Positions 2,880-60,377 of a stretch of DNA of 60,377 bases are shown piece by piece. The translations under genes and the position numbers were made by a program. Source of the stretch: Rhodothermia bacterium (GTDB lineage Bacteria; Bacteroidota; Rhodothermia; Rhodothermales; JAAAOL01). Position 1 is the first letter of the stretch; each line of letters starts with the position of its first letter. The notes beneath the pieces were generated by a model that was given only the letters and a program-made list of their open reading frames with translations, ran no database searches and had not been told where the DNA came from. The stretch spans positions 1 through 60,377 of the forward strand of contig JAUIDY010000022.1 of the NCBI GenBank assembly GCA_030428385.1, in the 5' to 3' direction.

Positions 2880-2970
2880 AACGATGAACGAATCCAGGGA
2901 GACACGAAGAAGCCGTGCCCGTTGGACACCAGCGGTTCATCGAGGGTTTACATTCGCTCGGGGCGATGCG

Positions 2971-3004
2971 ATTTTCTAGCTCAAGAAGCCGATAGCTGAT
3001 AGCC
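2971..3004. repeat. Heptanucleotide repeat remnant between permease genes
   Basis: A TTTTCTAGCTC block followed by AAGCC, GATAGCT and GATAGCC units lies directly before the stop of the next upstream permease. It matches the right arm of the 387-461 element, including the flanking TATTCATACCG at the gene end. The rest of 2880-2970 shows nothing I can name. Confidence 0.6.
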
Positions 3005-5374
3005 TTATTCATACCGGAGGCTTTTGACCGGATCGGCGAGGGCGGCCCGAATGGTTTGCAAAACGATGGTGAGCATGGCGACGCTGAGCAGTACCACGCC
3101 CGTCCACACGAAGACGCTGGGCCCCAGCGCGATCCGGTAAACGAAACCTTGCAACCACGTCTGCACCGCCACAAAGGCCACAGGCGACGCCAACACGATG
3201 GCGATGAGCACCAGCACCGCAAAGCGCCGGGCCAAGAGCAGGGCCACCTGCGCCGCCGACGCGCCCAGCACCTTGCGCACGCCGATCTCTTTCGTCCGCT
3301 GTGCCACCGAGAGCGAGGTAATTCCAACCAGCCCCGTTAGCGCGATCAGCAGGGCAAAGGCGGCGGCCAGTGTGAGGATGCGCGTCAGCGATTGCTCCAG
3401 TTGATGGGCGCGGGCGTAATAGTCGCTGGCGAACACGTAGGTCAGCCCCTGCTTCGCGTTCAGCGTCGGCCACAGCGCGTTGAGTTGGTTAATCACCGGG
3501 ATGGCGGACGTACCAGCGGCACGCACGGTGAGGTATTGGTATTCCGTGGGGGCTGCTTCGAGCGGCAGGTAGGCTTCGGGGCGAATCTGCTGTTTGAGCG
3601 AGGCAAAATGGATGTCCTGCGCCACCCCAACGATGGTCAGTGGCTGCCCGCCCTGATACACGGTTTGCCCAATCCCCGCCCGTTCGCCCAGGGCAGCGAG
3701 GGCGGTCTCGTTCAGCACCACCTCGCCGCGCTGGCGCGGTATGCGCCCATCGAGGAGCCGGATGCCATAGGTTTCTAGGAAGGCTTCGTCGGCCAAGTTG
3801 AAGTGCATCGACACCGGCTGGTCGGTTTCGGGCGTCAGGCCGAAATCGAGCGATTGCCAGTATTCCCCGCCGGGGGCGGCGGAACTGAGCGTGGCGCTCG
3901 CTACCTCGGCATTGCGCTGCAGTTCCTGTACCAACGTCCGCAGCCGCTCGTAACCTTGGGCCGCGTCATCGAAGGCATATTCGCTGATGGGCACCACGAG
4001 GCGGGGCTGGTCGCCGAGGTCAAGCGTTTGTCCTGCGACATACTGCATCTGTTGGTTCATCACCACGGTGCCCGCGAGCAGGCCCGCCGTCAGCACAAAC
4101 TGCACCACCACCAGCCCGTTGCGCAGCCGCTTGCCTTGCGGACGGCTCGAAAGCCGCCCTTTGAGCGTTTCGGTGGGACGAAAGCGCGCCAGAAAAAAGG
4201 CGGGATAGGCCCCGGCCCCGATGCCTACCAGCAGGCCGAGTGCCAGCAATCCGATCCAGACCACCGGATGTTGAAAATTCACGTCCATCACCAGCATCCC
4301 GTTCAGGATCTGGTTGAAGCTTGGTAGCAGCGCCTGCGTCAGCCCCAGGCCCAGCAGCAGCGCCACCAGCGTCACCAGCACCGACTCGCTGAGGAACTGT
4401 CCCGCCACGCTCCACCGATGCGCCCCTAGGACTTTCCGCATCCCAATCTCCCGCGCCCGGTCCATCGAACGCGCTGTGGCGAGGTTGGTGAAGTTGATGC
4501 CTGCCAGCAGCAGGATGCCGAGCGCCAGCAAAATGGCCGTCCACGCATACACCGGCTCGCGGTTGACCTCAGCCATCGGCACCAGCTTCATGCGGAAGTC
4601 GGACGTGTTGGTCTCGGCGCGGTATTTCGCCAGAAATGTGGGCAGGTACGCCTGCAGGTCGGCCACGTCGGTGTCGGGGCGCAGGCGCAGGTAGGTGAAC
4701 ACATAGTTGAGGTTCCAGTCGTCGCTGATGGCGCTGATCTTGCCCGAATACATCGTGGCGTGCTGGAACGAGGCCACGGCGCTGTAGCGGATGGACGAGT
4801 TGGGCGGCGGCGCCTTGAGGATGCCGGTGACGACCAGCGGGTCCTGTCCGTTCAGCAGTACGGTGCGCCCTATCGGGTCCGTGTTGCCGAAATACTTGCG
4901 GGCCGTTGCCTCGGTGAGCAGCACCGCGTCGGGCCGCGCCAGCGCCGCGGTTTCATCGCCCCGCAGCAGTTCAAACGAGAAGACCTCGAAGAAGCTCGGG
5001 TCAGTGTACAGCACGTTTTCCTGAAAAAACTGCCCATTTTCCGTGTCGCCGAGGTTGCTCGCGGGCGGCACATACACCTGATGGCCTTCATTGTACAACC
5101 GCGCACTTGCCACCACCGAGGGAAACTCGTCTTCCAGCGCTTCCTTGAGCGGTGCCCAGGTGGCGCTCGTGGACCAAAAATCCATGTCGATGACGGCCGT
5201 GTAAAGGTCGTCGGCCCGCTCGTGAAACCGGTCGAGCGTCAGCACGGCCCACGCGACGGTCAGCAGCAACACACTTACCCCAAAGCCCAGTGCCAGCCCG
5301 GCAATGTTGATGGCGGCGTAGCCGGGATGCCGCCGTAGGTTACGAAGTGCGGTCGTTACATAGTTTTTGAGCAT
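3005..5374 (-). CDS. ABC transporter permease, FtsX/MacB type (paralogue 3 of 5)
   Basis: This 789-residue permease has the same two-half layout as its neighbours: TM1 in the first 45 residues (GYAAINIAGLALGFGVSVL), a periplasmic MacB core, an FtsX domain with RAREIGMRKVLGAH, a second periplasmic domain, and a C-terminal FtsX domain with RTKEIGVRKVLGAS. It ends ADPVKSLRYE. It is more divergent in its periplasmic domains than in the ATPase-facing helices, as expected if paralogues share the ATPase but differ in partner or substrate (inference). ATG at 5374 is chosen because MLKNYV matches the paralogue N-termini. It is 45 bp downstream of the next permease in the operon. Confidence 0.93.
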   Translation of the reverse strand: MLKNYVTTALRNLRRHPGYAAINIAGLALGFGVSVLLLTVAWAVLTLDRFHERADDLYTAVIDMDFWSTSATWAPLKEALEDEFPSVVASARLYNEGHQVYVPPASNLGDTENGQFFQENVLYTDPSFFEVFSFELLRGDETAALARPDAVLLTEATARKYFGNTDPIGRTVLLNGQDPLVVTGILKAPPPNSSIRYSAVASFQHATMYSGKISAISDDWNLNYVFTYLRLRPDTDVADLQAYLPTFLAKYRAETNTSDFRMKLVPMAEVNREPVYAWTAILLALGILLLAGINFTNLATARSMDRAREIGMRKVLGAHRWSVAGQFLSESVLVTLVALLLGLGLTQALLPSFNQILNGMLVMDVNFQHPVVWIGLLALGLLVGIGAGAYPAFFLARFRPTETLKGRLSSRPQGKRLRNGLVVVQFVLTAGLLAGTVVMNQQMQYVAGQTLDLGDQPRLVVPISEYAFDDAAQGYERLRTLVQELQRNAEVASATLSSAAPGGEYWQSLDFGLTPETDQPVSMHFNLADEAFLETYGIRLLDGRIPRQRGEVVLNETALAALGERAGIGQTVYQGGQPLTIVGVAQDIHFASLKQQIRPEAYLPLEAAPTEYQYLTVRAAGTSAIPVINQLNALWPTLNAKQGLTYVFASDYYARAHQLEQSLTRILTLAAAFALLIALTGLVGITSLSVAQRTKEIGVRKVLGASAAQVALLLARRFAVLVLIAIVLASPVAFVAVQTWLQGFVYRIALGPSVFVWTGVVLLSVAMLTIVLQTIRAALADPVKSLRYE

Positions 5375-5419
5375 TTAGCCATACAAGTGGCGAGGGGTAG
5401 TGAGACAGAAGTGGCGGGA

Positions 5420-7837
5420 TTATTCGTAGCGAAGGCTTTTCACCGGGTCGGCGGTGGCGGCACGGATCGACTGGTAGCTGACCGTCAGCAAGGCAATGGC
5501 CAGCGCAACGGCGGCAGCCAGAACAAACAGGCCGACGCCGAGGTCGATGTGGTACGCGAAGTTGGCCAGCCACGCCTTCATGGCAAAGTAGGCCGCGGGC
5601 CACGCCACCAGGTTGGCGATGAGCACGAGGCGGGCGAAGTCTTTGGAGAGCAGACCCACGATGCCGGGCACGCTCGCGCCCAGCACCTTGCGCACGCCCA
5701 CCTCTTTCGTCCGCTGCTGAATCAGGAACGAAGCCAGCCCAAACAGACCGAGGCACGCGATGAGAATCGCCAGCACGGCAAACGTGGTGAAGAGCCGCCC
5801 CGTCTGCCGGTCGGCGGCATAGAGCGCGTCGAAGTTCTGGTCGAGGAAGGTATACTGGAAGGGCTCCGAAGGAACGAGGCCGCGCCACACCTGCTCGATG
5901 GAGGCCAGCGTACTTGGGATAGCACCGGGCGCGATGCGAATGGCGGCATACCCGTAAAAGTCGGCCAAATGAATCGCCACGGGATCGATGTTCTGGTGCA
6001 GCGACTCGAAGTGGAAATCCTCGACCACGCCAATCACGGTGTAGCGGTCCATCTCGCTGCTGTCAAACGAAGGCTGGGTGAGCACCTTGCCGAGGGGGTC
6101 GGCAGTCCAGCCGAGCCGGTTCACCGCGGCCTGATTTAGCAGAACGGCGTTGGAGTCGGAGGCCATGTCGCGTGAGAAGGTGCGCCCGGCGATGAGCCGC
6201 ATCCCCAGCGTTTCGGCGAGGTCATGGTCGGCAAACATCACCCGGAGCGACTCGATTTCATTGCTCGGGGCGTCTTCTTTCTGGTATCCATTGTCACCCA
6301 TCAGGTCGCCGGGCACGTCGTTGGTGAACGACATCAATTCGACGTTGGGCAGCGCCAGCACCTCTTGCCGGAAGGCGTCGCGCTGGTCGCCGAGGGCCCT
6401 GGCGCGCTCCAGCACCAACACCTGCTCCTTGTCGAACCCGAGGTTTTTGTCCTGCACATACCGGATCTGGTTGAACACCACGCCCGTGCATACCATCAGG
6501 GCGATGGAGATGGCAAACTGGAACACGACGAGTCCGTTGCGCAGCAACGCGCCGCCGCCTTTCTGCTGCATCTTGCCCTTGAGCACCACCGCTGGGCGGA
6601 ACGACGACAGGAAAAAGGCGGGGTAACTCCCCGAAACCACGCCGACGATAATGGCAAGCGCCACCAACCCGGCGAGCAGCCCGGCGTTGTTCAAAAACGC
6701 ATTGTCGAGGGTGGTGCCTGTCAGGGTGTTAAACAACGGCAGCGTGACTTGCACAATCGCCATCGCTAGGGCCAGGGCAAGCGTGCTCATCAGCACGGCC
6801 TCGAACAGGAACTGCCGGATCAACTGGCCCCGCTCCGAGCCCAGCGTCTTGCGGATGCCGACTTCGCGGGCACGCCCCGCCGACCGCGCCGTGGCAAGGT
6901 TCATAAAGTTGATGCACGCGATCAGCAGGATCAGCAGCGCAATCGCGCCGAGGGCATAGACGTAGGCGCTGTTGCCGCCCGGCTCGATCTCGTAGTCGAG
7001 GTCATGATACAAGTGGATGTCAGGGAGGGCCTGGAGGAAGTAGTGAAAGCCGCTGGCTTCCATGAAGTCCTCAAACGACAAACCCAACAGCTCCTGCGCC
7101 ATCGGCCCGACGTATTCTTCGACCAACTGGCCGAGCTTGGCCTCAAACGCTCTGGCGTCATGCCCCTCGGGCAGCACCAGATAGGTGTAAAAATTATTGC
7201 TGCCCCATGCCGTATTCGCGAGGTTACGGGCATTGCTTAGCATGGAGCCAAAGATATCAGCGTGGAAGTGGGAGGCTTCGGGGATGTCTTCCATCACCCC
7301 GGTCACGCGGTAGTCATCCTCGTTGATAGCAATGGTCTCGCCCACGGGGTTGCGGTCGCCGAAGTATTTTCGCGCCGTCGTTTCGGAAAGCACCAGTGTA
7401 TAGGGCTCGGCGAGGGCGTCTTGTGGGCTGCCATAGATCAGGGGCAGCGTGAACACGTCGAACACGGTGGAGTCGGCAAAGAAGAAGCGTTCTTCCACAA
7501 AGGAGCGATCATCATAGCGCCCCCGCACCGTGCCGGTAAAGGCGAACAGGCGGGTGGTTTGCTCCACTTCGGGGAAATCTTCGAGCAAGGTCTCGGCCAT
7601 GAGGGCAGGCGAGACGGCAGCATGAAACGAAGCATCGCCGAGGCGGGCGTCGAAGCCGACGCGGTAGATACGCTCCGCCTTTTCGTGGTGGCGGTCGTAT
7701 GAAAGCTCGTGCTGGACGAAGAGGAAGATGATCAGGCAGCACGCCAGCCCCACGGCCAGCCCGCTCACGTTGATCATGGTGTAACCCGCTTGCTTGCGCA
7801 ACGTGCGCAGCGCGATGAGGAGATAGTTTCTAAACAT
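5420..7837 (-). CDS. ABC transporter permease, FtsX/MacB type (paralogue 2 of 5)
   Basis: This 805-residue MacB/FtsX permease starts MFRNYLLIALRTLRKQAGY. TM1 includes GLAVGLACCLIIFLFVQHEL, and the DRHHEKAERIYRV segment leads into the first periplasmic core. FtsX-associated coupling helices are RAREVGIRKTLGSE in the first half and RTKEVGVRKVLGAS in the second. The protein ends ADPVKSLRYE. It is an inner-membrane subunit of the export complex encoded by this operon, probably working with the ATPase at 10691-11407 and the adaptor at 11481-12848. The gap to the upstream permease is 59 bp and contains a small palindrome. Confidence 0.93.
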   Translation of the reverse strand: MFRNYLLIALRTLRKQAGYTMINVSGLAVGLACCLIIFLFVQHELSYDRHHEKAERIYRVGFDARLGDASFHAAVSPALMAETLLEDFPEVEQTTRLFAFTGTVRGRYDDRSFVEERFFFADSTVFDVFTLPLIYGSPQDALAEPYTLVLSETTARKYFGDRNPVGETIAINEDDYRVTGVMEDIPEASHFHADIFGSMLSNARNLANTAWGSNNFYTYLVLPEGHDARAFEAKLGQLVEEYVGPMAQELLGLSFEDFMEASGFHYFLQALPDIHLYHDLDYEIEPGGNSAYVYALGAIALLILLIACINFMNLATARSAGRAREVGIRKTLGSERGQLIRQFLFEAVLMSTLALALAMAIVQVTLPLFNTLTGTTLDNAFLNNAGLLAGLVALAIIVGVVSGSYPAFFLSSFRPAVVLKGKMQQKGGGALLRNGLVVFQFAISIALMVCTGVVFNQIRYVQDKNLGFDKEQVLVLERARALGDQRDAFRQEVLALPNVELMSFTNDVPGDLMGDNGYQKEDAPSNEIESLRVMFADHDLAETLGMRLIAGRTFSRDMASDSNAVLLNQAAVNRLGWTADPLGKVLTQPSFDSSEMDRYTVIGVVEDFHFESLHQNIDPVAIHLADFYGYAAIRIAPGAIPSTLASIEQVWRGLVPSEPFQYTFLDQNFDALYAADRQTGRLFTTFAVLAILIACLGLFGLASFLIQQRTKEVGVRKVLGASVPGIVGLLSKDFARLVLIANLVAWPAAYFAMKAWLANFAYHIDLGVGLFVLAAAVALAIALLTVSYQSIRAATADPVKSLRYE

Positions 7838-7842
7838 GAGGG

Positions 7843-7896
7843 GTTAGCGATTAGTGATTAACGATGAGTAATTGTTAATTGCTCATCACTCATTGC
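7843..7896. repeat. AT-rich short palindromic repeat between permease genes
   Basis: The linker is made of variations on GATTAGTGATTA and GCTCATCACTCATT. ATGAGTAATT (7864-7873) pairs with AATTGCTCAT (7877-7886) with a single G-T mismatch. It is clearly lower in GC than the flanking genes. A shorter related string (GATTAATGATGAGC) occurs near 10340, upstream of the first permease. Confidence 0.5.
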
Positions 7897-10329
7897 TCAT
7901 TCATAGCGGAGGCTCTTCACGGGGTCGGTGAGCGCGGCGCGGATGGACTGATAGCTGACGGTGGCAAACGCGATGAGTACGGCCAGTCCTCCAGCCAGCA
8001 CAAACAGCCCCACGCCAAGGTCCATGGCATAGGCGAAGCTTTCCAGCCATTCCGAGAGGAGGAGGTACGCCACCGGCACGGCGAGCGCAAACCCCACCAG
8101 TACCAGCGTCAGGAAGTCGCGGGACAGCAGCCCGACGATGTTGGGAACGCTCGCGCCTAGCACCTTGCGCACGCCGATTTCTTTGGTGCGCAGCATGGTG
8201 GCATAGGCGGCCAGCCCCAGCAGGCCAAGGCACGCGATCAGGATGGCCAGCAGCGAGAAGGTGCCAAACGTCCGGGCCAGGCGCTGCTCGGCTTCGTATT
8301 GACGGGCGAAGTTGTCGTCGAGGAAGAAATAATCCATCGGGTAGCCGCTGAAGAACTGCGCCCAGGTGGCATCCAGATGCCGCAAAACCTGGGTTGTTTG
8401 TTCCGGGGCCACCCGCATCGCCACGAGCCCTTGCCGGGTCGGGTTGATGCCAAACACCATCGGTCGGATTTCTTCCTGCAAGCCATGGTGGTGATAGTTC
8501 TGGACCACGCCCACCACTTCGGCCTCGCGCTTCTGCGCACCGGGCAAGGTAATATGTTTGCCGACAGCGTCGTCCGGCGACGCCCACCCTCCAGCTTCAA
8601 CCATCGCCTCGTTGATGAGCAGCGCCTCGTTGATATCCGTGGTCCGCTCCACATCAAAGTCGCGCCCCGCCACCAGCGTCAGCCCAAGGGTTTCGAGGTA
8701 ATCATGATCGACAGAGGCATATTCGAGCAGCAGGCTCTCCCCCTCGGCCCAGCCTTCGGGGAACGCGACGATGCTACCCCACGCGCTGCGCCCCGGAACG
8801 GTGAATGTAGCCGATGCCTGGTGGATGCCGGGATGCGCGACGAGCGCTTGTTTCAGCACGTCGGTGCGCGCCGCCCGTTCGCTGCTGGGGGCACGGCGGG
8901 CATCGAGCACCACCACCTGCTCCTGCGTAAACCCAAGCTCCTGCGCCTGCATAAAATCGACCTGCCGCACCACGGCGAGCGTCGCCACGATGAGAATACA
9001 CGAGATGGCAAACTGAAACACCACCAGTCCCTGCCGCAGCCGCCTGCCGCGTCGGCTCGACGAAAAACGCCCCTTGAGCACTTCAACCGGGCGAAACGCC
9101 GATAGCACAAACGCTGGGTACAAGCCAGCCAGCATGCCCAAAACGCCGCTGATTCCTGCCATCGTCAGCACGAGGGGCAGCGTCAGGAAGTCGGCGGGGC
9201 CATAACTTTTGCCGATGAGGCTGTTAAACAGCGGCAGCAGCAGCCCCACAAGCGCAAACGACAGCAGCAGCGCCATGCCGCTCGTCATCAGCGACTCGGC
9301 CAAAAACTGCCCCACGAGTTGCCCCCGCCCGGAGCCGACGACTTTGCGCACGCCCACTTCTTTGGCGCGCATGGTGCTTCGGGCGGTGGCGAGGTTGATA
9401 AAATTGGTCGCGGCGATGAGCAGGATAAACCCAGCAATGGCGGCGAGTAGCCAGATCGTGCGGATGTCGCCCTGTGGCCCCAACCGGCTCCAGTACCCAT
9501 TGGCCCGCAGATAAATGTCTTGGAGCGGCTGGAGATTGATCCAGTAGGTGGTGCCCATGCCGTTGAGCCCTTCGGCGTAGTGCTCCATCGGCAACTGCCG
9601 CACTTTTTGGGTAAACGCGGCAGCATCTACACCTTCCCGCAACAGCAAATAATTAATGACGTTGACGTTCAGCCAGCCATAATCGAACGCTTCGTTGTAT
9701 CCCGCTTCTCCCCACAGCGACCGTATCGTAGACGCGGACGCCATTACGTCGAATTGCAGGTGCGAGTGTTCCGGGACGTGCGCTACGCCTGTTACGGTGA
9801 AGTGGAGTGTGTCAGCAAAGGTGACTTGTTTTCCGAGCGCGGCGTCTTCGCCAAACATCCGTCCGGCCAAATCCTCTGACAGCACCACGGAATACGGCTC
9901 GGTGAGCGCAGTCTCCGGGGAGCCTTCGATCAGGGGAAAAGAAAACATGCCGAAGAAGCCTTCGTCGGCATACAGCATGTTTTCGTAGAGCCGCTCGCCG
10001 TTGTGGACGAGGGGAAACGTCGGGAAGGCGTGGAGATACACCACATCCTCCACCTCGGGATAGTCGGCCTCCAGGATGCGCCCATACGGCCAGCCGATGG
10101 TGCCCATCTTGCCAAACTCATCGTCGGCGCTCTGTTTGATGTCGCTGACGACGCGGTAGATGCGGTCGCCTTGCTCGTGGAAGCGGTCATACGCCACTTC
10201 GTCTTGCACAAACAGCACCAGCAACAACCCACATGCCAGCGCCAGCGCCAGCCCGAACACGTTGATTACGGCATAGCCAGGATGCCGACGCAACGCCCGC
10301 GCGGCCACGGTGAGGTAGTTCTTCAGCAT
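7897..10329 (-). CDS. ABC transporter permease, FtsX/MacB type (paralogue 1 of 5)
   Basis: This 810-residue permease is the first of the five in transcription order. It starts MLKNYLTVAARALRRHPGY. TM1 is at about residues 20-42 and is followed by QDEVAYDRFHEQGDRIYRVV. The first FtsX block carries RAKEVGVRKVVGSG, and the C-terminal block carries RTKEIGVRKVLGAS and ends TDPVKSLRYE. It lies 361 bp downstream of the ATPase gene. That gap contains a 167-nt structured repeat, so the permeases may be transcribed partly apart from the adaptor and ATPase (inference). Its substrate is unknown. Confidence 0.93.
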   Translation of the reverse strand: MLKNYLTVAARALRRHPGYAVINVFGLALALACGLLLVLFVQDEVAYDRFHEQGDRIYRVVSDIKQSADDEFGKMGTIGWPYGRILEADYPEVEDVVYLHAFPTFPLVHNGERLYENMLYADEGFFGMFSFPLIEGSPETALTEPYSVVLSEDLAGRMFGEDAALGKQVTFADTLHFTVTGVAHVPEHSHLQFDVMASASTIRSLWGEAGYNEAFDYGWLNVNVINYLLLREGVDAAAFTQKVRQLPMEHYAEGLNGMGTTYWINLQPLQDIYLRANGYWSRLGPQGDIRTIWLLAAIAGFILLIAATNFINLATARSTMRAKEVGVRKVVGSGRGQLVGQFLAESLMTSGMALLLSFALVGLLLPLFNSLIGKSYGPADFLTLPLVLTMAGISGVLGMLAGLYPAFVLSAFRPVEVLKGRFSSSRRGRRLRQGLVVFQFAISCILIVATLAVVRQVDFMQAQELGFTQEQVVVLDARRAPSSERAARTDVLKQALVAHPGIHQASATFTVPGRSAWGSIVAFPEGWAEGESLLLEYASVDHDYLETLGLTLVAGRDFDVERTTDINEALLINEAMVEAGGWASPDDAVGKHITLPGAQKREAEVVGVVQNYHHHGLQEEIRPMVFGINPTRQGLVAMRVAPEQTTQVLRHLDATWAQFFSGYPMDYFFLDDNFARQYEAEQRLARTFGTFSLLAILIACLGLLGLAAYATMLRTKEIGVRKVLGASVPNIVGLLSRDFLTLVLVGFALAVPVAYLLLSEWLESFAYAMDLGVGLFVLAGGLAVLIAFATVSYQSIRAALTDPVKSLRYE

Positions 10330-10426
10330 GACGAATGGCGATTAATGATGAGCCAGCAGTAAAAACTCTGGATCGTTTTGAAGGGCATCCCTGCTCCTCG
10401 CTCGCCCATGTATTCACAAACCTTCC

Positions 10427-10593
10427 GTTCTTTTGTCTTGATACAAAAGAATCAAAAGATCAAGGCTGCACCAAAATCGGCTAACGCTACGCTTCGGCGG
10501 CGAGGAAACTTCAAACTCGCTTCGCTCAGACAGGAAGTTTCCTTTTTCGCCACCTGCGCTCCGCGTTCGAGACGCCGATTTTGCTAAGGCCAA
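10427..10593. repeat. 167-nt structured dispersed repeat, copy 1
   Basis: This element recurs at 56442-56608 in the same orientation and at the same length. It has three visible pairings. TTCTTTTGT/ACAAAAGAA (10428-10436 with 10443-10451) closes the loop CTTGAT. CAAAATCGGC/GCCGATTTTG (10472-10481 with 10574-10583) encloses the rest. GGAAACTTC/GAAGTTTCC (10504-10512 with 10534-10542) forms the inner hairpin. Both copies lie just past the 3' end of a minus-strand gene. Short ORFs inside it (for example a stretch reading FLSERSEFEV) are probably fortuitous. Nothing else was recognised in 10330-10690. Confidence 0.85.
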
Positions 10594-50112: not shown

Positions 50113-50760
50113 TTAGCGGGAGCGCGAAGGCGCGGTGGCAAAAGGTACGGTTTCTGGGGCTTCGGAGGAACCACCGGGCGTTTCAATAGGAGCCATCACG
50201 GCGTCAATGCGGATGTCTTGCACCGGATCAACCTTGACGATGACAAGGCCGGGCGGCTCGATGTTGTAATCTTCCAGATTAAGCTCCCACGCGGCCAGCA
50301 CACGCAAGGAAAACGGGGTGATCTGCACGGAGCCTTCTACCTCGATCTCGCGCGTCACGCCATGGATCTTAAAGTTGCCCCGTACGCGCACGGGCTGCAG
50401 GTCGGTAATGGTTGGGTCTACGGGGGTCACCAGCCGACCGAAGAACTCCGCAAAGGGATGGTCTCGGGTGTCCAACGTCTTGCGCAGGTCCTTGTCGCGC
50501 TTCCAGATACCCGTCTTCAGCGTATTCAGATCGATGTAGAAATCGACGGTGCCATCTTCGAGGTTCACCTGCCCGGTCAGGTTCTGCGTCATGCCGGTGA
50601 AGTTGTGTAGCGGTACTTCAGAGGTAAACTCGGCATAACCCGTCTCGGTGTAGAACGTCTGGGCGTGGGCGCTTTGTAGAGAAGGAAGCAGCAAAGAGAC
50701 GCCGGCCAACAATACCAAAAAATGGGCAAGGCGGAAAGAAGGAGCAGTGGAGGGGTTCAT
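50113..50760 (-). CDS. YceI family protein (paralogue 2)
   Basis: The 215-residue product has a signal peptide ending LLPSLQSAHAQ, then one YceI lipocalin-like barrel: YAEFTSEVPLHNFTGMTQNL, DFYIDLNTLKTGIWKRDKDL, TLDTRDHPFAEFFGRLV and FKIHGVTREIEVEGSVQI. YceI proteins bind isoprenoid-like lipids in the periplasm. The C-terminus adds a Pro/Ser-rich tail (ETPGGSSEAPETVPF). It is clearly a tandem duplicate of the gene at 50972, from which it is separated by 211 bp that contains a GGGGG/CCCCC hairpin at 50876-50895. Confidence 0.9.
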   Translation of the reverse strand: MNPSTAPSFRLAHFLVLLAGVSLLLPSLQSAHAQTFYTETGYAEFTSEVPLHNFTGMTQNLTGQVNLEDGTVDFYIDLNTLKTGIWKRDKDLRKTLDTRDHPFAEFFGRLVTPVDPTITDLQPVRVRGNFKIHGVTREIEVEGSVQITPFSLRVLAAWELNLEDYNIEPPGLVIVKVDPVQDIRIDAVMAPIETPGGSSEAPETVPFATAPSRSR

Positions 50761-50971: not shown

Positions 50972-51559
50972 CTATTGACCCAGCGCCACCGGAACGGGCG
51001 AGAGCAGGGCGTCAATCTGGATGTCCTGTATCGGGTTCACCTTCACGATCAACAGGCTTGGCGGTTCGATGTCGTAGTCATCCAGGTCTAGTTCCCAGGC
51101 GGCCTGCACACGGATGCCGTCCGCGGTTTTTTGTAGCGAGCCGGTGATTTCCACCTGTTTAGTGATGCCGTGGATCTTAAATTCGCCACGCACAATGGCA
51201 GGCTGCACCGCATGGCTGTTGGTATCGAAGGGCGTAACCAATTGGCCAAAGAACTCCGCAAACGGATACTGATCCGTGTCGAGCGTTTTCTTCATGTCCT
51301 TGTCGCGCTTGCCGATACCGGTCTTCAGCGTGTTCAGGTCGATGTAAAAATCGACGGTGTGGTCCATGAGATCGATTTGCCCGACGAGGTTTTCAGAGGT
51401 GCCCGTGAAGCTGTGCAGGGGCACTTCTGACCTGAACTCGGCATGACCACGTTCCGTCTGAAACGTCTGGGCCTGGCTGACCAGCGGAAGCAACACAACC
51501 AGGGTTACAAAAAGCACGACACGCCGAGCAAACCTCTGCGTACGGTTTACGAAAAGCAT
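50972..51559 (-). CDS. YceI family protein (paralogue 1)
   Basis: The 195-residue product has a signal peptide (RRVVLFVTLVVLLPLVSQAQ) and one YceI domain with FRSEVPLHSFTGTSENLVGQ, DFYIDLNTLKTGIGKRDKDM, TLDTDQYPFAEFFGQLV and FKIHGITKQVEITGSL. Most barrel positions agree with the neighbouring paralogue, and both end in LIVKVxPxQDIxIDA, so a recent duplication is likely. It lies 104 bp downstream of the haem-motif lipoprotein gene on the same strand. Confidence 0.9.
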   Translation of the reverse strand: MLFVNRTQRFARRVVLFVTLVVLLPLVSQAQTFQTERGHAEFRSEVPLHSFTGTSENLVGQIDLMDHTVDFYIDLNTLKTGIGKRDKDMKKTLDTDQYPFAEFFGQLVTPFDTNSHAVQPAIVRGEFKIHGITKQVEITGSLQKTADGIRVQAAWELDLDDYDIEPPSLLIVKVNPIQDIQIDALLSPVPVALGQ

Positions 51560-53070: not shown

Positions 53071-54918
53071 TTAGCGGGTCACCGTGAGTAACCGCGATTG
53101 CGCCGCGTGGGCGGTTTCGAGGCGGCACAGGTAGGTGCCGCTCGGCAGGTGCCGGGCGTCGAAGGTGACTTGGTGCGTCCCGTTCGGCTGTACGGTGTCC
53201 ACCAGCGATGCCACGAGGCGGCCCAGCAAATCGTAGACGTGCACCCGCACGGTCCCCGGCTGGGGCAGGGTGTATTGGATGGTGGTGCTGTCCCGGAAGG
53301 GGTTGGGAAAGGATTCCGCCAACAGCGGCTGGTCGGGTAGAAGCGCCCCGCCCTCGGTGGAAACCAGCGACGGCACCATGCCCTCGGTGGCGATGAGGAA
53401 TTGGTCAGCGGGGACGTGGTACACTTCTTCGACCAATCCCGACGGCCACTCAACACGTAGCGTGTCGATGTGGGTGGCGTCGCCCAGGCCGAAGTGGGCA
53501 CGGGGGCTGTTCTGGCTGCGGTCGCCCGTGGGGCTGCCGGAAAGATGGCGCACCTGCCACATCGGTTGCCCAAAGATGGTGGCCTTCACGCGTACCTTGG
53601 CCCCGATGGCCGAGCGGTTGGAGGTGGTGCCCTCCGCCGCGATGTTGATCCAGTGGTTGCCGTTGGCGACGGTGTTCTGGTACAAATAGTTCGCGGTGCT
53701 GCTGTTGATGACGATGGCATCGAGGAAGCCGTCGTTGTTGTAGTCGGCCCAGGCCGCGCCCCACGAGTTCCCGGGCGTAGAAACGATAGAGCCCGCTTCG
53801 GCCTGCGTCAGCGTGGTAAACGTGCCGTCGCCGTTGTTGCGATACAGCTTGTCCAGCCCGCCGTTGGCCACCAGCAGGTCTTCGTCGCCGTCGTTGTCGA
53901 AGTCACCCCAGCCGCTGCCCAGCGTGCCATCGGTGTCGGTGACCACCGGGCCGGTGGTGAGGGCGGTAAACACGCCGCCGCCGTCGTTTCGGTACAGGTA
54001 GTTGGCAACACCACGTGGACCGCCCGCATGGCCGAGGAAGACGTCCATGTCACCGTCGTTGTCGTAATCCGCCCAGCTTACCTGAAAGTCATTGTCGAAG
54101 TGGGTCACGATGCCGCCCGTGGTGATTTCTTCAAAGCCAAGGCTGCCGTTGTCGGAGAGCCGGTTCAGGAACAGCCGGTTGTCTTCCGCCCCAGGCGGCA
54201 GAAAGCGCCCGCTTTTGGCGAGCAGCACATCCTGGTCGCCGTCGTCGTCGAAGTCGATCCAACTGGCCACGCCGGTGCTGGGCCCCGACCCCGGCTCGAT
54301 GAAGGCAGGCGTGACGGCTGTAAAGTGCCCGCTCCCGTCGTTCTCGTAAAAGAAGTCATCGGCGGCGTGCAGGTTGTCCGGCATGTGCAGGTCGAGGTCG
54401 CCGTCGTTGTCATAATCCACCCAGCTACTGCTCCAGGTGAAGTTGGCCTGGGTGGCGGGTGGCTCGTCGGTGACTTTGGTAAACGTGTAGTTCGGTGGGC
54501 CATCGTTCCGGTAGAGGAAGTTGGCCTGGGCAGGCGCGGTGACGGGCGGCGGAACGTTGCCGCCCCGGTTGCTCACGTACAGGTCGAGGTCGCCGTCGTT
54601 GTCATAGTCGGCCCAGAGGCTGCCCCGCGAGTCGCCAGAGTCGGTAGCAATCGCGCCCGTGGTGACCTTCGTGAAGGTGCCGTCGCCGTTGTTGGTGTAG
54701 AGGGCGTTGCGGGCGTTGCCGTTGGCCACAAACAAGTCGATAAACCCGTCGGCATTGTAATCGCCCCACGCCACGCCCTGGCTTACGGCGGTTTCCGAAG
54801 CCACGGGGCCCGTGGTGACACGGGTGAAGGCCTGGGCATGCAAAGCCGTAGGCAAGAAACTCAGGAATAGCAAAACGGTGCAGGTAAGGGCAAGAGGACG
54901 CAGGAAAACAAAACGCAT
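53071..54918 (-). CDS. VCBS/FG-GAP repeat protein with ASPIC/UnbV and T9SS sorting domains
   Basis: From the ATG at 54918 the product has 615 residues. A signal peptide (LTCTVLLFLSFLPTALHAQ) is followed by about seven VCBS/FG-GAP blades (consensus WADYDNDGDLDLYV, calcium-loop type) spanning roughly 40-440. An ASPIC/UnbV domain follows (about 450-530; NHWINIAAEG, HFGLGDATHIDTLRVEWPSG), then a type A sorting domain (ESFPNPFRDSTTIQYTLP ... HLPSGTYLCRLE). It should be an outer-surface calcium-binding propeller delivered by the T9SS. The start at 55044 would place 42 unlikely residues before the signal. Confidence 0.93.
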   Translation of the reverse strand: MRFVFLRPLALTCTVLLFLSFLPTALHAQAFTRVTTGPVASETAVSQGVAWGDYNADGFIDLFVANGNARNALYTNNGDGTFTKVTTGAIATDSGDSRGSLWADYDNDGDLDLYVSNRGGNVPPPVTAPAQANFLYRNDGPPNYTFTKVTDEPPATQANFTWSSSWVDYDNDGDLDLHMPDNLHAADDFFYENDGSGHFTAVTPAFIEPGSGPSTGVASWIDFDDDGDQDVLLAKSGRFLPPGAEDNRLFLNRLSDNGSLGFEEITTGGIVTHFDNDFQVSWADYDNDGDMDVFLGHAGGPRGVANYLYRNDGGGVFTALTTGPVVTDTDGTLGSGWGDFDNDGDEDLLVANGGLDKLYRNNGDGTFTTLTQAEAGSIVSTPGNSWGAAWADYNNDGFLDAIVINSSTANYLYQNTVANGNHWINIAAEGTTSNRSAIGAKVRVKATIFGQPMWQVRHLSGSPTGDRSQNSPRAHFGLGDATHIDTLRVEWPSGLVEEVYHVPADQFLIATEGMVPSLVSTEGGALLPDQPLLAESFPNPFRDSTTIQYTLPQPGTVRVHVYDLLGRLVASLVDTVQPNGTHQVTFDARHLPSGTYLCRLETAHAAQSRLLTVTR

Positions 54919-55113
54919 CAGATCATCGAAGACAGTGGTGGAAAGCAAGGCATGCCGCAAAGGATGCCCGTTGGGATCATAACCTACTACGCCCTCCCCT
55001 AGATCGTCTCCTGAAAGCCTAAAGATTGCCTCAAGGTTTGCCAAAGGTTACCCAAGCCTTTATTGCAGCGCGGGATGCTGTATCTTGAGGGAGTCATTTG
55101 TCCACGATGTGCC

Positions 55114-56181
55114 ATGCGTCCGGTCCTCTGCAACTACTACGTCACCTACCGCTGCAACGCCACGTGCAGCTTCTGCGACATTTGGGAGCGCCCGTCGCCG
55201 CTGGTGGATCTGGCCGATGTAACGCAAAACCTGGACGACCTGCGGCGGCTGGGCGTGCGCGTCATCGACTTCACCGGCGGCGAGCCGCTGCTGCATCCGC
55301 AGTTGCCCGACCTGCTGGCGCTCGCCAAAGAACGCGGCTTCCTGACGACGGTGACGACCAACGGCCTGCTGTATCCGAAACGGGCCAAGCAACTGGCGGG
55401 GCTTGTGGACCTGCTGCACTTTTCCATCGACTCGTCGGTGCCCGAAGAGCACAACGCCTCGCGGGGCGTCCGCTGCTTCGACAAGCTGATGGCCTCCATC
55501 GAGACGGCGCTGGCGCTGGGCGAACACCCTGACCTGCTTTTCACCGTCACCAACGACAACGTCCACCGGCTGCCCGAGATTTACGAGCACATCAGCTACC
55601 CGAACCGGCTGCTGCTTATCCTCAACCCGCTGTTTGCCTACAACGACCTCGGCGGCACGCTCCGCGCCGAGGTGATGCAGACGATGCAGGCGTTTGCGCG
55701 GAAGCCGTATACGTACCTCAACCCTGCGTTTTTGTCGCTGCGGCAAGCCGGAGGCAACGACCCGGCAGCGCCCGTCTGCAAAGCCGTTTCCACCTCGGTC
55801 GTCATCTCGCCGTTTAACGAACTGGTGCTCCCCTGTTACCACCTCGGGCTGGAGACGCTGCCCATCAACGGCGGGCTTTACGACTTGTGGCACAGCGACG
55901 CCGTGGCGCACCACCGTGCGATGGAAGGCCGCCACGCCGCCTGTGCTGGCTGCACCATCAACTGCTACTTCGAGCCCAGCTTTGCGACGAGTCCGGGCAC
56001 GCCGTATTTCTGGCAAAGCCTGCCGTCGAAGGTGCGCTACGGCTGGACCAAGTTCCTCGTGCAGCGCCTCCGCACGAAGGTGCGCGGTCCCCGCACGGCG
56101 CAGTTGCCCGACTTCGACGGACCAGCTTTTCCTGCGGGTGATGGGGCAAGCGAGATGATCGACCTGCCCGTCTTACGGTGA
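55114..56181 (+). CDS. Radical SAM protein with SPASM-like C-terminal cysteines
   Basis: From the ATG at 55114 the product has 355 residues. The radical SAM cluster motif CNATCSFC (Cys14, Cys18, Cys21) is followed by DFTGGEPLLHPQL, the SAM-binding GGEP. The second half has CKAVSTSVVISPFNELVLPC and CAGCTINC, enough cysteines for an auxiliary cluster as in SPASM/Twitch enzymes. A peptide-modifying or lipid-related role is possible; no precursor peptide is recognised nearby. A start at 55063 adds 17 residues. The stop overlaps the convergent 2Fe-2S gene by nine bases. Confidence 0.9.
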   Translation: MRPVLCNYYVTYRCNATCSFCDIWERPSPLVDLADVTQNLDDLRRLGVRVIDFTGGEPLLHPQLPDLLALAKERGFLTTVTTNGLLYPKRAKQLAGLVDLLHFSIDSSVPEEHNASRGVRCFDKLMASIETALALGEHPDLLFTVTNDNVHRLPEIYEHISYPNRLLLILNPLFAYNDLGGTLRAEVMQTMQAFARKPYTYLNPAFLSLRQAGGNDPAAPVCKAVSTSVVISPFNELVLPCYHLGLETLPINGGLYDLWHSDAVAHHRAMEGRHAACAGCTINCYFEPSFATSPGTPYFWQSLPSKVRYGWTKFLVQRLRTKVRGPRTAQLPDFDGPAFPAGDGASEMIDLPVLR

Positions 56182-56397
56182 CACCGGGGTTGGTTCGTCC
56201 GCCTCGCGCACAATCTCGCCAAACACCGTCTCGCCCGTGCGCAACATGCGGCGGACGTACGGATGGCACAGCTTGCACTTTTGCCCGAACGTCACATGCT
56301 GTTGCACTTCTTCGACGGTCTCTGCGCCCGTAGCTTCGGCCACCTTCTGAAGACAAAAGAACGTTTGTTGGAAGCAATAGCAGCGGTCGATGCGCAT
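56173..56397 (-). CDS. BFD-like (2Fe-2S)-binding protein
   Basis: This 74-residue protein starts at the ATG at 56397 (MRIDRCYCFQQTF). It has the CxC...CxxC ligand set of the BFD-like domain: Cys6 and Cys8 in RCYC, and KCKLC near residues 42-46. A VTFGQKCKLCHPYVRRML segment follows the family closely, and the C-terminus is TVFGEIVREADEP. Members carry a [2Fe-2S] cluster and often act in iron or electron transfer. The gene is convergent with and overlaps the radical SAM gene. The longer frame from 56529 runs into the 167-nt repeat. Confidence 0.88.
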   Translation of the reverse strand: MRIDRCYCFQQTFFCLQKVAEATGAETVEEVQQHVTFGQKCKLCHPYVRRMLRTGETVFGEIVREADEPTPVSP

Positions 56398-56441
56398 GGG
56401 TAAAGTAGATGCCGAGCTTATTTGCTCGTTTGGGTTTGAAC

Positions 56442-56608
56442 GTTCTTTTGGCTTGATCCAAAAGAACCAAAAGATCAAGGCTGCACCAAAATCGGCTGAC
56501 GCTGCGCTGCGGGAGCGGCACAACTTCAAACTCGCTACGCTCAGACAGGAAGTTGCGCTTATCGCTCCCTTCGCTCCGCGTCCGAGACGCCGATTTTGCT
56601 AAGGCCAA
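56442..56608. repeat. 167-nt structured dispersed repeat, copy 2
   Basis: It has the same length and orientation as 10427-10593. Stems are GTTCTTTTGG/CCAAAAGAAC (56442-56451 with 56458-56467, loop CTTGAT), the terminal CAAAATCGGC/GCCGATTTTG pair, and an inner CAACTTC/GAAGTTG (56521-56527 with 56549-56555) extended by GGGAGCG/CGCTCCC (56511-56517 with 56563-56569). Where it differs from copy 1 within stems, both strands change together. It starts about 34 bp past the stop of the beta-propeller lipoprotein gene. Confidence 0.85.
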
Positions 56609-56641: not shown

Positions 56642-57751
56642 TTACTGCAACACAATATGCGCGGGCGAGATGCCCACGGTGAAACGCCCGGTTTGCTGCC
56701 CGGCGTCGTCGAGCACCACCACGGCACCCGCCGCCGTGAAGTCCGGCCCGCCGCCATCGCCGACAGGCATCCGCGCCACGTACAGATCGCCGCGTCCGGC
56801 GTCGTAGGCCAGGGCGGCGAGGCCGACGAGGTCGGCGGCAGGTGGCACGGCGATGGTTTCGGCAAGGGTGTTGGTGCGCGTGTCGAACCGGAAGATTTCG
56901 TCGGTGCCGCTGCTGAGGACGAGCAGCGTCTCGTCGGCGTAGTAGCCCATTTGCGTGCCGTTCACCGAGCCGACGCCGTTGGGCAGCGTGACGCGGGTGG
57001 TGATGGTCTCGGCGTCGGGGTTGAGGAAGAGCACCTGCCCGTTTGTTGCCGTACCCGTCCACGACGCCTGTCCGCCGCACACCACGATGACTTCGTCGTT
57101 GTCATCCACGAACAACTCATCCGGTCCTTCGCAGCCCAGGTCAATCGTGTTGGTGACTTCGTCCGTCGCTGTGTCGATGACCGTCATTGTGGTGCTGCGT
57201 CCGCCCGAGCCAACGTTGGCGACGAACACCTTGCCGTCGGCCACTGCCAGCCCTTCGGGTTGGCGTCCGGCGTCCAGCGTTTTGGTGATGGTGTTCGTGT
57301 TGAGGTTCACCACAGCGACGGAGCCCGGCGTCGGGTTGAAGTTTTCGTCGAAGGGGCCATAGAGCGTCACGTACGCCTTGTTGTTGTCGGCAAAGGCAAT
57401 GGCACGAGGTGGTTGGGTGAAGCTGATTTGCCCGGCAGCAGCGAGGTTGTTTTCGTTGAACATGGTGATGCGCCCGCCACCATCGGAGATGGTGTTGTCG
57501 ACCACATACAGCAGGCCCCGGTTCAATGCGAGGCTGTTCACAAAGGCGACTTCAAGATCGACGGGGCTGGCGGTGCCCGTGGCGGGGTCGAACACGGTCA
57601 CCGAGCCGTCCTGGTCGGCAAAGTTACCGCTGTTGCCCACAATCACGCCGGTCGCGGGCGTCGGGCCGTCATCGTTGTCGCCGCCAAAGAGGTCACAGCC
57701 TGCGACACCCAGGGCGAGGAATGCGCAGAGGAAGAAACGGAGGGGTTTCAT
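56642..57751 (-). CDS. Beta-propeller lipoprotein, BtuG-like candidate
   Basis: From the ATG at 57751 the product has 369 residues. It has a lipoprotein signal (LRFFLCAFLALGVAGC) and a Gly/Asp-rich tether (DLFGGDNDDGP). About seven YncE/YVTN-type blades follow, such as GSVTVFDPATGTASPVDL, KVFVANVGSGGRSTTMTVID and EIFRFDTRTNTLAETI. In Bacteroides, BtuG is a surface beta-propeller lipoprotein that binds B12 tightly and sits on BtuB. Here the gene lies 19 bp after a BtuB-like receptor controlled by a cobalamin riboswitch, so the same role is likely. Binding residues cannot be verified by eye, so the symbol is withheld. Confidence 0.87.
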   Translation of the reverse strand: MKPLRFFLCAFLALGVAGCDLFGGDNDDGPTPATGVIVGNSGNFADQDGSVTVFDPATGTASPVDLEVAFVNSLALNRGLLYVVDNTISDGGGRITMFNENNLAAAGQISFTQPPRAIAFADNNKAYVTLYGPFDENFNPTPGSVAVVNLNTNTITKTLDAGRQPEGLAVADGKVFVANVGSGGRSTTMTVIDTATDEVTNTIDLGCEGPDELFVDDNDEVIVVCGGQASWTGTATNGQVLFLNPDAETITTRVTLPNGVGSVNGTQMGYYADETLLVLSSGTDEIFRFDTRTNTLAETIAVPPAADLVGLAALAYDAGRGDLYVARMPVGDGGGPDFTAAGAVVVLDDAGQQTGRFTVGISPAHIVLQ

Positions 57752-57770
57752 GGAAGGTGAGGGATAAGGG

Positions 57771-59699
57771 TTAGGGATGAAAGTCGAGGGTGAGCCGCAG
57801 GTGCCCGTGGCGCGGGGGCATGGGATAGAGTCGGATGATGGTGTAGTCTGCATCGAAGAGGTTTTGCAGGCCGAGGGCGAGCGTGGCGCTGGTCGTGCCG
57901 AGGGAGTACTGGAGTCGAAGCTGGGCGTCGAACACCTGATACGGATCGAGCCACGTCGATTCGTCGGAGGCCAGGAAACGGCGGCTCACGAAGCGCCCGG
58001 ATAGATCGAGCCGCACGGTGCGCCCGCCGATGCTGGCGTAGAGCTTGAGCTGCTCGCGGGGGACGTAGCGCAGTTGTTTTTTGTAAGAGGCTGCGTTGGC
58101 ATTGCCCCGGTTCTTGGCGTCGGTGACGGTATAAAACAGCCCGCCTTCCAGCCGTGCAGGGCGCAGGTTGGTCGTGGCTTGCACCGAAACCTCAATCCCG
58201 CGCGAGACGACGCGGGCGACGTTGTCGGGCCGCCAGATTTGTACGCCGGGGCTGACAGCACTGGGGTGCCACACGATCTGGTCGTTGTTGCGCAGCGCGA
58301 AGGCCGTCACTTCGGCGTCGAGGGACCGGTGCTGGAGGTGGATGCCAAGGTCGCCGCTCCATCCGCGTTCGGGCGTGAGGGCGGGGTTGCCGCCGGGCTG
58401 GCTGAAGCGCTCGGCGAAGGTCGGGGCGCGGAAGGCGCGTCCGCCGCTGGCTTTGAGACGCAGCGCGTCCCACGTGAAAGGCTGCACGACAAGCCCAAGG
58501 CGTGGGCTGAGGGCCGTAAACGTGGCGGCTTCGCTATGCTGCACATCAAGGCGGAGCGCCGGATTGAGTTGCCAGCGCCCGCGCGTCCCCGTAAGTGCGG
58601 TGAATACGCCGAGCCGCTGCTGCTGGAAACCATCTTCCACATCGGTGTGGTCGTAGCCAGCCTCAGCCCCGGCGGTGAGGAGCCACGCGTTGCCGAGGAG
58701 CACATCGGTGTAGGTGTCCAGCGTCAGCGTATGCGTTTGGGTGGTGTTGTCGGCAGAGGCGGTCGGGTTGACGAAGCGGGTGGTGGTGCGGTGGGCGGCT
58801 AGCGTGCTGTGCCACGCGGTATGGTGGATTTGCTGGTGATGGGTAAGCCAGAGGCGTGTCTGGTCGTCCCATTGCCGCGCGCCGCCGGGTGGTGCATTGC
58901 CCGGCCCCGGCAGTCCGCGCTCGGTGTCGCTGTGCCACACGGCGAGGCTGATGGTCTGTGCCTCGCTCTCATGCCCGATCCGCCCATACAGCGACGTGGC
59001 CGACTGATCGGCACCTTCGCGGGCGACTTCGGCTACGGGCACCAGCGCCGTGTTGAGGTACGAAAAGTCACCCTGCCGTTGGCGTGTCTCTGCCGCCGCT
59101 ATCGCCGACCATGATCCGCGCTGCCCAGAAAGCGTCGCGCCCAATTCTTTCGTTCCAAACGCCCCCATGCCTCCCGAAACACGCACCTGTGGCGTCTCCG
59201 ATGCTTGAATCGTGCGAAGCCGCACCGTCCCGCCAAGACTTCCGGTGCCGTAGCGTGCCGCCCCCGCGCCATGTACCACTTCCACCGAGGCGAGCAAACT
59301 CGTGGGAATTAGCGAGAGGTCGAGTTGCCCCGACTGCGGATCAGAAAGACGGACGCCATCGAGGAGGAAAAGCGTCTGGCTGGCGTTGGTGCCCCGCAGC
59401 GAAACGGTGGCAAGGCCGCCCGCGCCGTACTGCTTGATGAACAGGCCGCTCCGTGCTTCGAGCAGAGTCGCTGTGGTGCGGGCGCCGGTGGCTTCCAGTG
59501 CATCAGCGTCGAGGGTGAGGACGCGGCTGCCTTCGAGTGTGGGGTCGGCAGGGCGTGTCTCTTCCACGCGGATTTCGGGCAGGACGACGGTGGTGTCGGG
59601 CGGGGTTTGGGCACGCACGCACACCGGGCTGCTGGCAAGGCAGGCCGCAACAAGCAAGGCGCAACGCGCATGGCGGATGAGGGAGTCCGTAAAAAGCAA
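57771..59699 (-). CDS. btuB: TonB-dependent receptor, BtuB-like (cobalamin)
   Basis: This 642-residue outer-membrane receptor has a signal peptide (MLFTDSLIRHARCALLVAAC...), a probable TonB box near TTVVLPEIRVEE, and a plug domain (about 55-165; LRGTNASQTLFLLDGVRLSD, GAGAARYGTGSLGGTVRLRT). A 22-strand barrel runs to the C-terminus (HGHLRLTLDFHP). A cobalamin riboswitch upstream identifies the ligand as B12 or a related corrinoid. No in-frame ATG precedes the signal, and an in-frame TGA lies six codons upstream, so TTG at 59699 must be the start unless a frameshift is present. That TTG lies inside the T-tract of a predicted terminator. No BtuCDF genes are in the window. Confidence 0.93.
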   Translation of the reverse strand: MLFTDSLIRHARCALLVAACLASSPVCVRAQTPPDTTVVLPEIRVEETRPADPTLEGSRVLTLDADALEATGARTTATLLEARSGLFIKQYGAGGLATVSLRGTNASQTLFLLDGVRLSDPQSGQLDLSLIPTSLLASVEVVHGAGAARYGTGSLGGTVRLRTIQASETPQVRVSGGMGAFGTKELGATLSGQRGSWSAIAAAETRQRQGDFSYLNTALVPVAEVAREGADQSATSLYGRIGHESEAQTISLAVWHSDTERGLPGPGNAPPGGARQWDDQTRLWLTHHQQIHHTAWHSTLAAHRTTTRFVNPTASADNTTQTHTLTLDTYTDVLLGNAWLLTAGAEAGYDHTDVEDGFQQQRLGVFTALTGTRGRWQLNPALRLDVQHSEAATFTALSPRLGLVVQPFTWDALRLKASGGRAFRAPTFAERFSQPGGNPALTPERGWSGDLGIHLQHRSLDAEVTAFALRNNDQIVWHPSAVSPGVQIWRPDNVARVVSRGIEVSVQATTNLRPARLEGGLFYTVTDAKNRGNANAASYKKQLRYVPREQLKLYASIGGRTVRLDLSGRFVSRRFLASDESTWLDPYQVFDAQLRLQYSLGTTSATLALGLQNLFDADYTIIRLYPMPPRHGHLRLTLDFHP

Positions 59700-59738
59700 A
59701 AAGCCCCAACCTCAATGCGAGGTTCGGGCAAGCGGGGC
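59691..59738 (-). terminator. Predicted riboswitch terminator overlapping the receptor start codon
   Basis: On the minus strand GCCCC (59734-59738) pairs with GGGGC (59703-59707), enclosing AACCTC-GCATT-GAGGTT. It is followed by TTTTTGCTTTTT (59691-59702). The receptor's TTG start (59697-59699) is inside this T-tract. Ligand-bound riboswitch RNA would be expected to favour the hairpin. Confidence 0.65.
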
Positions 59739-59831
59739 GGGTTGGGAAGGAGCCACACAAAAAGACGCGGGGCACAACCTGCCGTACGATGCGCCGCGAA
59801 CCTCAGGGTCCCGAAGGTTATTGGCAAAGAC

Positions 59832-60036
59832 GCACGCAGGCAGGTCTCCTGGCTCGCTGCCATGGGGCCTTCCACTCCCGAACCCGCCTTCCCACGCCGG
59901 GGCGCAGTGACGGTTCGTTCCTTGTGGAGGACCAGAAGCAGCTTACAGTTGCGGGTACAGCCCCCGCTTTTCCGCATGTTGGGTACGATGCGGAGCACGG
60001 GGTTCCCTTTTCATCCCACCCGGAAACTTCCGGGCA
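59832..60036 (-). ncRNA. Cobalamin riboswitch (adenosylcobalamin-type)
   Basis: Read on the minus strand, the conserved blocks appear in the right order: GGGATGAAAAGGGAACC (60001-60017), GCTGTACCCGC overlapping CCCGCAACTGTAAGC (59941-59961), the B12 box GTCACTGCGCC (59901-59911), GGGAAGGCGGG (59883-59893) and AGCCAGGAGACCTGCCTG (59837-59854). A CCCGGAA/TTCCGGG hairpin stands at the 5' side. Binding of cobalamin should reduce expression of the receptor and the following lipoprotein. Between the aptamer and the gene lies about 130 nt containing a CGCGG/CCGCG stem followed by TCTTTTT and the terminator at 59691-59738, consistent with transcriptional control. Confidence 0.93.
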
Positions 60037-60377
60037 TGGAACCATGCGGCGTATGCGAAAGAGCGAGCCATCAAGATCGACGGTGGGTGTCGGAAAGACA
60101 AATGAAGATTTTGACCAAGGAGGAGTGCATTGCTCCGCGTTGGAGGTGTTTGGTCTTTTTTGCTGTTGTTGCACTTCCTTCAGGCCTCGCCGAGGCAACG
60201 GCTTTTGCCAAAGGATATGTTTGTTCTTTCAGGGACGAAAGAACCAAAGTCCTGCCGCCTCCGAAACGCACGAACCCCGATCCAACCCTACCTACGCCGT
60301 ACCCAACGGGCACAAAGTGAAAGGCACTTCCCAAACGCCCCAGTGATGCCCATTGGCTAAACGCACCGGGGTTCCAC
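60037..60377. other. Right-end region without a recognised gene
   Basis: No frame here looks protein-coding. A hairpin GTTCTTTC/GAAAGAAC with loop AGGGAC (about 60220-60241) resembles the first stem of the 167-nt repeat. The promoter of the riboswitch transcript should lie in the left part of this region but was not identified. Confidence 0.5.

Follow-up and report, generated by a model that had tools for sequence, protein, structure and literature searches.

We analyzed a window of 60,377 nucleotides (contig JAUIDY010000022.1, positions 1 to 60,377, assembly GCA_030428385.1, from a Rhodothermia bacterium) and found, at the end of the contig, a cluster of minus-strand genes that we read, with a probability of roughly 0.87, as a BtuBG-type operon for scavenging corrinoids. 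In order of transcription, the cluster consists of a cobalamin riboswitch, the receptor gene btuB, the lipoprotein gene btuG, and a gene for a small [2Fe-2S] protein. Four lines of evidence (sequence, structure prediction, gene order, and regulation) together indicate a BtuBG pair. The pair itself is already known; what is new is its breadth of occurrence, the two ways in which BtuG is anchored, and the [2Fe-2S] gene. The features of the locus are as follows.

59822-60046, minus strand: cobalamin riboswitch aptamer (RF00174; cmscan 93.2 bits, E 6.8e-22)
59700-59728, minus strand: terminator-like hairpin with U-tract, a candidate expression platform, between the aptamer and btuB
57771-59699, minus strand: btuB, TonB-dependent cobalamin receptor, 642 amino acids (PF07715 plug and PF00593 barrel)
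56642-57751, minus strand: btuG, BtuG-type seven-bladed beta-propeller lipoprotein (PF16819, DUF5074, above cut-off)
56441-56608, no strand assigned: 168-nt dispersed repeat, non-coding in appearance, between btuG and the [2Fe-2S] gene
56173-56397, minus strand: BFD-like [2Fe-2S] protein, 74 amino acids (PF04324, 27.1 bits against a cut-off of 26)

The sequence-only reading of this DNA had proposed a riboswitch-controlled, BtuB-like receptor followed after 19 bp by a seven-blade, BtuG-like lipoprotein. Riboswitch, btuB, and btuG all proved real, and the 19-bp gap stands, given the likely btuG start at ATG 57751 (MKPLRFFLCAFLALGVAGC); the interval claimed for them, in contrast, was one gene too short, as it missed the [2Fe-2S] gene. 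The riboswitch match lies well above the gathering score of 31.5, spans the whole model (1-189) with the conserved core intact, and is the only match found in the entire 6.19 Mb genome. Downstream of the aptamer, a pattern scan identified the hairpin CCCGAACCTC-GCATT-GAGGTTGGGG-CTTTTTGCTTTTT (stem 59724-59708), which is also present in the predicted minimum-free-energy fold. Because similar patterns turn up often across the region (7 sites against 5.2 expected), only the position of the hairpin before btuB is telling; this position suggests transcriptional control, which we infer.

The receptor was placed beside the BtuB proteins of the solved BtuBG complexes by single sequence, by profile, and by predicted structure. 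Single-sequence matches in the PDB began with BtuB3, BtuB2, and BtuB1 (8p98/8p97/8bmx/8blw), ahead of Escherichia coli BtuB, and a profile built from 30 Rhodothermales receptors gave the ranking BtuB2 (3e-94), BtuB3 (1e-89), BtuB1 (5e-84), and E. coli BtuB (3.5e-44). In agreement with the sequence ranking, the top six Foldseek matches of the predicted structure (predicted local distance difference test, pLDDT, 88.5) were all BtuB3, BtuB2, or BtuB1. The NCBIfam model TIGR01779 scored 155.6 bits, which is below its curated cut-off of 599.7 but still the best among the TonB families scanned; the receptor was therefore assigned by its nearest solved structures. All 30 receptors carry a Trp or Tyr in extracellular loop 8 (Trp489 in the window), at the position where Tyr538 of BtuB3 contacts B12 (PMC10404256). 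The annotated start of btuB, a TTG, is uncertain because it sits within the U-tract of the hairpin.

For the lipoprotein, the assignment of fold and family is firm. It has a lipobox (VAGC, residues 16-19, as read from the letters) that would leave an N-terminal cysteine, and the mature N-terminus, CDLFGGDNDDG, is acid-rich like the surface export signals of Bacteroidota, a rule that is not established for Rhodothermales. The AlphaFold2 model (pLDDT 93.4) returned BtuG1, BtuG2, BtuG3, or their relative 3DSM as the first 16 PDB matches in Foldseek (E 3e-20 to 7e-18), followed by the archaeal YVTN protein 1l0q (9e-14), BtuK1 (4e-13), and E. coli YncE (2.5e-11). VIA-align 2 gave the same order, with BtuG at Z 34-36 (about 301 residues at 2.4 Å; Z 36 on the seven-bladed BtuG2), 1l0q at 31.9, BtuK1 at 29.1, and YncE at 27.5, so that the seven-blade, BtuG-like character proposed from the letters was borne out by both comparisons. 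In a profile search against the PDB, every BtuG chain scored 1e-23 or better and YncE 8e-8, with 1l0q higher through its repeats. In an alignment with BtuG2 and 56 homologues, the window protein keeps N-x-G-x-F in blade 1, P-R in blade 3, and F-x-x-G-x-x-P at the end. In its mature form it is very acidic, with an isoelectric point of 4.05, consistent with the negatively charged B12 face reported for BtuG2.

The definition of BtuG comes from gut Bacteroides, and among 313 gut genomes the protein was found in Bacteroidetes only (PMC6143338); a 2025 paper reports it absent from other users of BtuB. Our literature search found no papers joining BtuG with Rhodothermus, and DUF5074 returned one proteomics paper only. 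We looked for the system in 40 whole-genome relatives, all of the order Rhodothermales, and recovered btuG in 31 of them (30 by single-sequence search, plus the divergent G039 by profile). The order riboswitch-btuB-btuG was constant in the loci fetched, and where both genes lay on one contig btuB and btuG were separated by -4 to about 210 bp; in G001 and G006 the contig ends cut inside btuB. Riboswitch, BtuB, and BtuG are all missing from two relatives (G014 and G019), which is a coherent joint loss. Five further genomes (G004, G018, G028, G024, and G034) have the riboswitch and btuB without btuG. Riboswitch-btuB loci of this BtuG-less kind include L043, L053, L059, L056, and L079, and in family f14 groES/groEL come next.

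A scan of named genomes gave matches in Salinibacter altiplanensis, in metagenome-assembled genomes (MAGs) of Rhodothermus, and in a Rhodothermales MAG. At the level of the phylum, a survey matched the BtuG profile in 126 of 247 genomes at 1e-8, of which the weak matches may be other propellers. We then considered the 57 distinct homologues in genomes with a listed riboswitch (Bacteroidota in the sense of GTDB). For at least 47 of these, a same-strand riboswitch lies no more than 8 kb upstream, in most cases at about 2 kb, which is the length of btuB. Neighbours of btuG outside the order include CobT, just downstream in one class-level relative, and a diphthamide-synthase-like gene. NCBI gives Rhodothermales a separate phylum, Rhodothermota, and GTDB-style sampling groups it with relatives of Bacteroides. 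The proposal that this B12 system extends beyond gut Bacteroides is thus sustained within Rhodothermales and across Bacteroidota as GTDB defines it. Presence throughout the order, including the Salinibacter lineage of brines and the Rhodothermus lineage of hot springs, together with joint inheritance with btuB over the phylum, points to BtuBG uptake as an ancestral mode rather than a gut invention. As a separate observation, G007 and G011 each carry a second cobalamin riboswitch (L046:4350-8913 and L049:5980-10739) before apparent class I ribonucleotide reductase genes (nrdB, nrdA); from the sequence, this appears to be the usual swap to a B12-independent isozyme.

The third gene encodes a protein resembling the bacterioferritin-associated ferredoxin (BFD) type of PF04324. 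It shares with those proteins the C-x-C and C-x2-C ligands and the size; unlike them, it scores just over the family cut-off and sits in a B12 operon. The gene is found in 32 of the 40 relatives, nearly always as a single copy, and in most Rhodothermales loci it follows btuG, usually within 80 bp. In Salinibacter it lies about 1.6 kb from btuG with other genes between, and in three f4 loci without btuG it comes directly after btuB. In the window the gap is wider because the 168-nt repeat lies in it; a second copy of this repeat (family D6) is found at 10426-10593 and is 88% identical. A PDB sequence match of the protein to importin was set aside as a chance match.

A serious competitor, to which we give somewhat less credit than to its opposite, is that the [2Fe-2S] gene stands outside the B12 system, either as a neighbour kept by chance or with an unrelated role in the operon. 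Consistent with this, the gene is kept in G019, where the rest of the system is gone, is unlinked in G007, has no copy in families f14 and f15, and is separated from btuG by the repeat in the window. Against it, more than 30 loci of at least nine families have the gene next to btuG or, if btuG is absent, next to btuB, mostly at 80 bp or less, and all four cluster cysteines are conserved in an alignment of 38 homologues. We found no papers linking the PF04324 family to cobalamin uptake, and a BFD-like gene in a B12 cluster appears to be undescribed before. Its conservation makes it a concrete lead for a step of B12 uptake.

The homologues of BtuG, both inside and outside the order, fall into two forms with zero intermediates. 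The lipoprotein form, to which the window protein belongs, has a cysteine lipobox and a C-terminus that ends only 1-9 residues past the propeller; the other starts with a plain signal peptide and extends 101-104 residues further at the C-terminus. This second form accounts for 18 of 57 homologues, which lack the lipid anchor and carry a sorting domain of the type IX secretion system instead (loci L045, L047, L050, L057, L065, L068, L073, L075, L080, L122-L128, L130, and L158). The T9SS type A sorting domain TIGR04183 was recognized in all eight extensions tested, at 26-43 bits against a cut-off of 23. SprA, of the type IX translocon, was present in 36 of 36 genomes tested, with both forms represented, so missing machinery does not explain the lipoprotein form. 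On the tree, the anchor label needs four changes, and a single origin of the type IX forms was rejected by 154 log units (approximately unbiased test, p-AU 2.8e-10). Genus g25 contains both forms in equal gene order, the lipoprotein form in G032 and the type IX form in G039; on the tree the G039 protein falls with that of G031, a genome of f9, and an exchange may account for it.

Relatives with the type IX form apparently rely on another export system to keep the lid on the cell. Apart from one unrelated match, we found no literature joining BtuG with type IX secretion, and a type IX-anchored BtuG appears to be undescribed before. Such anchoring in some lineages would test the need for a lipid hinge in lid function. 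Tentatively, and short of even odds, we picture a lid module whose anchor is interchangeable, given the repeated switches between lipid and type IX forms, coupled to a dedicated [2Fe-2S] protein for corrinoid redox state. Use of type IX cargo by the window's own genome is shown by an FG-GAP/ASPIC protein, encoded at 53071-55044 (minus), that carries a type IX sorting domain.

Several points count against a BtuBG operon in the window. The lipoprotein is only about 20% identical to BtuG in sequence, and sequence alone ranks the generic YVTN protein 1l0q first. The main text of the BtuG2 paper names five aromatic B12 contacts, and four of the five have non-aromatic counterparts in the lipoprotein (W194 to G183, Y239 to A229, W272 to G261, and Y316 to A312, all alignment-dependent); among those named, only Y335 is kept in character, as F338. 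This comparison covers the five named aromatics of a B12 site to which BtuG2 also contributes 13 hydrogen-bonding residues. We also asked whether the loop-8 aromatic of the receptor marks a BtuG partner; it does not discriminate, being carried by BtuG-less receptors as well.

These points bear on two other accounts of the lipoprotein. In the first, corrinoid is imported by the system, but the lipoprotein is not a hinged lid: like BtuH or BtuK, it would bind corrinoid freely at the surface and pass it on. BtuK1 of Bacteroides thetaiotaomicron (9s6c; PMC12751083) is a seven-bladed, B12-binding surface lipoprotein with the same fold; the type IX forms in relatives, moreover, lack the N-terminal lipid and linker that make up the hinge of BtuG2. 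We nevertheless consider a free binder improbable: BtuK1 falls well below BtuG in both structural comparisons (Z 29.1 vs 36), and the strict one-to-one pairing with btuB, like the fold, fits BtuG better. The second account, a generic YncE/YVTN propeller that stands behind btuB by chance and binds no B12, draws on the 1l0q match and on the pocket aromatics of BtuG2 that are mostly absent, but is very improbable. The score of 1l0q, a repeat protein, adds up over its repeats, whereas BtuG comes first by a clear margin in the full-length alignment and in the two structural comparisons, and the YncE family model NF052280 gave 19.7 bits against a cut-off of 400. Throughout order and phylum, moreover, the lipoprotein gene stays linked to btuB and the riboswitch, and the three are lost together, as would not be expected of a bystander.

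If the locus is a BtuBG operon, we propose that it would work as follows, on the lid mechanism described for BtuBG (PMC10404256). When corrinoid is scarce, the riboswitch would let transcription through the hairpin before btuB. At the cell surface, the lipid-anchored propeller would form a lid on BtuB, its central pocket taking up corrinoid and then closing; we infer both the binding of cobalamin by the lipoprotein and its docking on BtuB. Loop 8 of the receptor, with Trp489, may loosen the bound vitamin, which would drop into BtuB for TonB-energised import. For the inner-membrane step, contig C245 offers a candidate BtuFC pair, a periplasmic binding protein encoded beside a FecCD permease. 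The BFD-like protein, probably cytoplasmic, may give electrons to reduce the imported corrinoid, a role suggested by B12 salvage chemistry and the weakest step of the proposal. A B12-dependent methionine synthase, MetH, is encoded in the same genome (1768 bits).

A second FecCD locus, on contig C178, was rejected as an inner-membrane candidate, as its neighbour is HmuY; with a TonB receptor, an HmuY-like lipoprotein, and a FecCD permease, this locus (L153) is likely one of haem uptake. In Salinibacter and three distant relatives, a DUF6580 membrane protein is encoded directly downstream of btuG (L078:6247-6843, L131:4319-4927, L136:2121-2639, and L137:2244-2768) and is a candidate inner-membrane corrinoid transporter. 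A search for DUF6580 in the genome of the window gave no match; since it gave none in the control genomes either, the result does not argue for absence.

Among known systems, the closest are BtuB2G2, BtuB3G3, and BtuB1G1 of B. thetaiotaomicron (8bmx, 8p97/8p98, and 8blw; PMC10404256, PMC6143338). The window shares with them adjacent genes for btuB and a propeller lipoprotein, a cobalamin riboswitch, the folds of both proteins, the loop-8 aromatic, and an acidic lid protein. It differs in that each protein is only about 20% identical and most of the BtuG2 pocket aromatics are absent, and its operon is minimal, with btuG after btuB, no genes for BtuH, BtuJ, BtuK, or BtuFCD beside them, and the BFD-like [2Fe-2S] gene after btuG. 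E. coli BtuB has the TonB receptor fold and the upstream cobalamin riboswitch in common with the window receptor, but it lacks a BtuG partner and is clearly further away in sequence and structure.

A scan for defence families gave no matches. Elsewhere in the window, four tandem MacB/FtsX-type permeases of about 800 amino acids each are encoded at 462-10329 (minus), and a tandem YceI-like pair, 73% identical over 252 nt, occupies 50113-50760 and 50972-51559 (minus).

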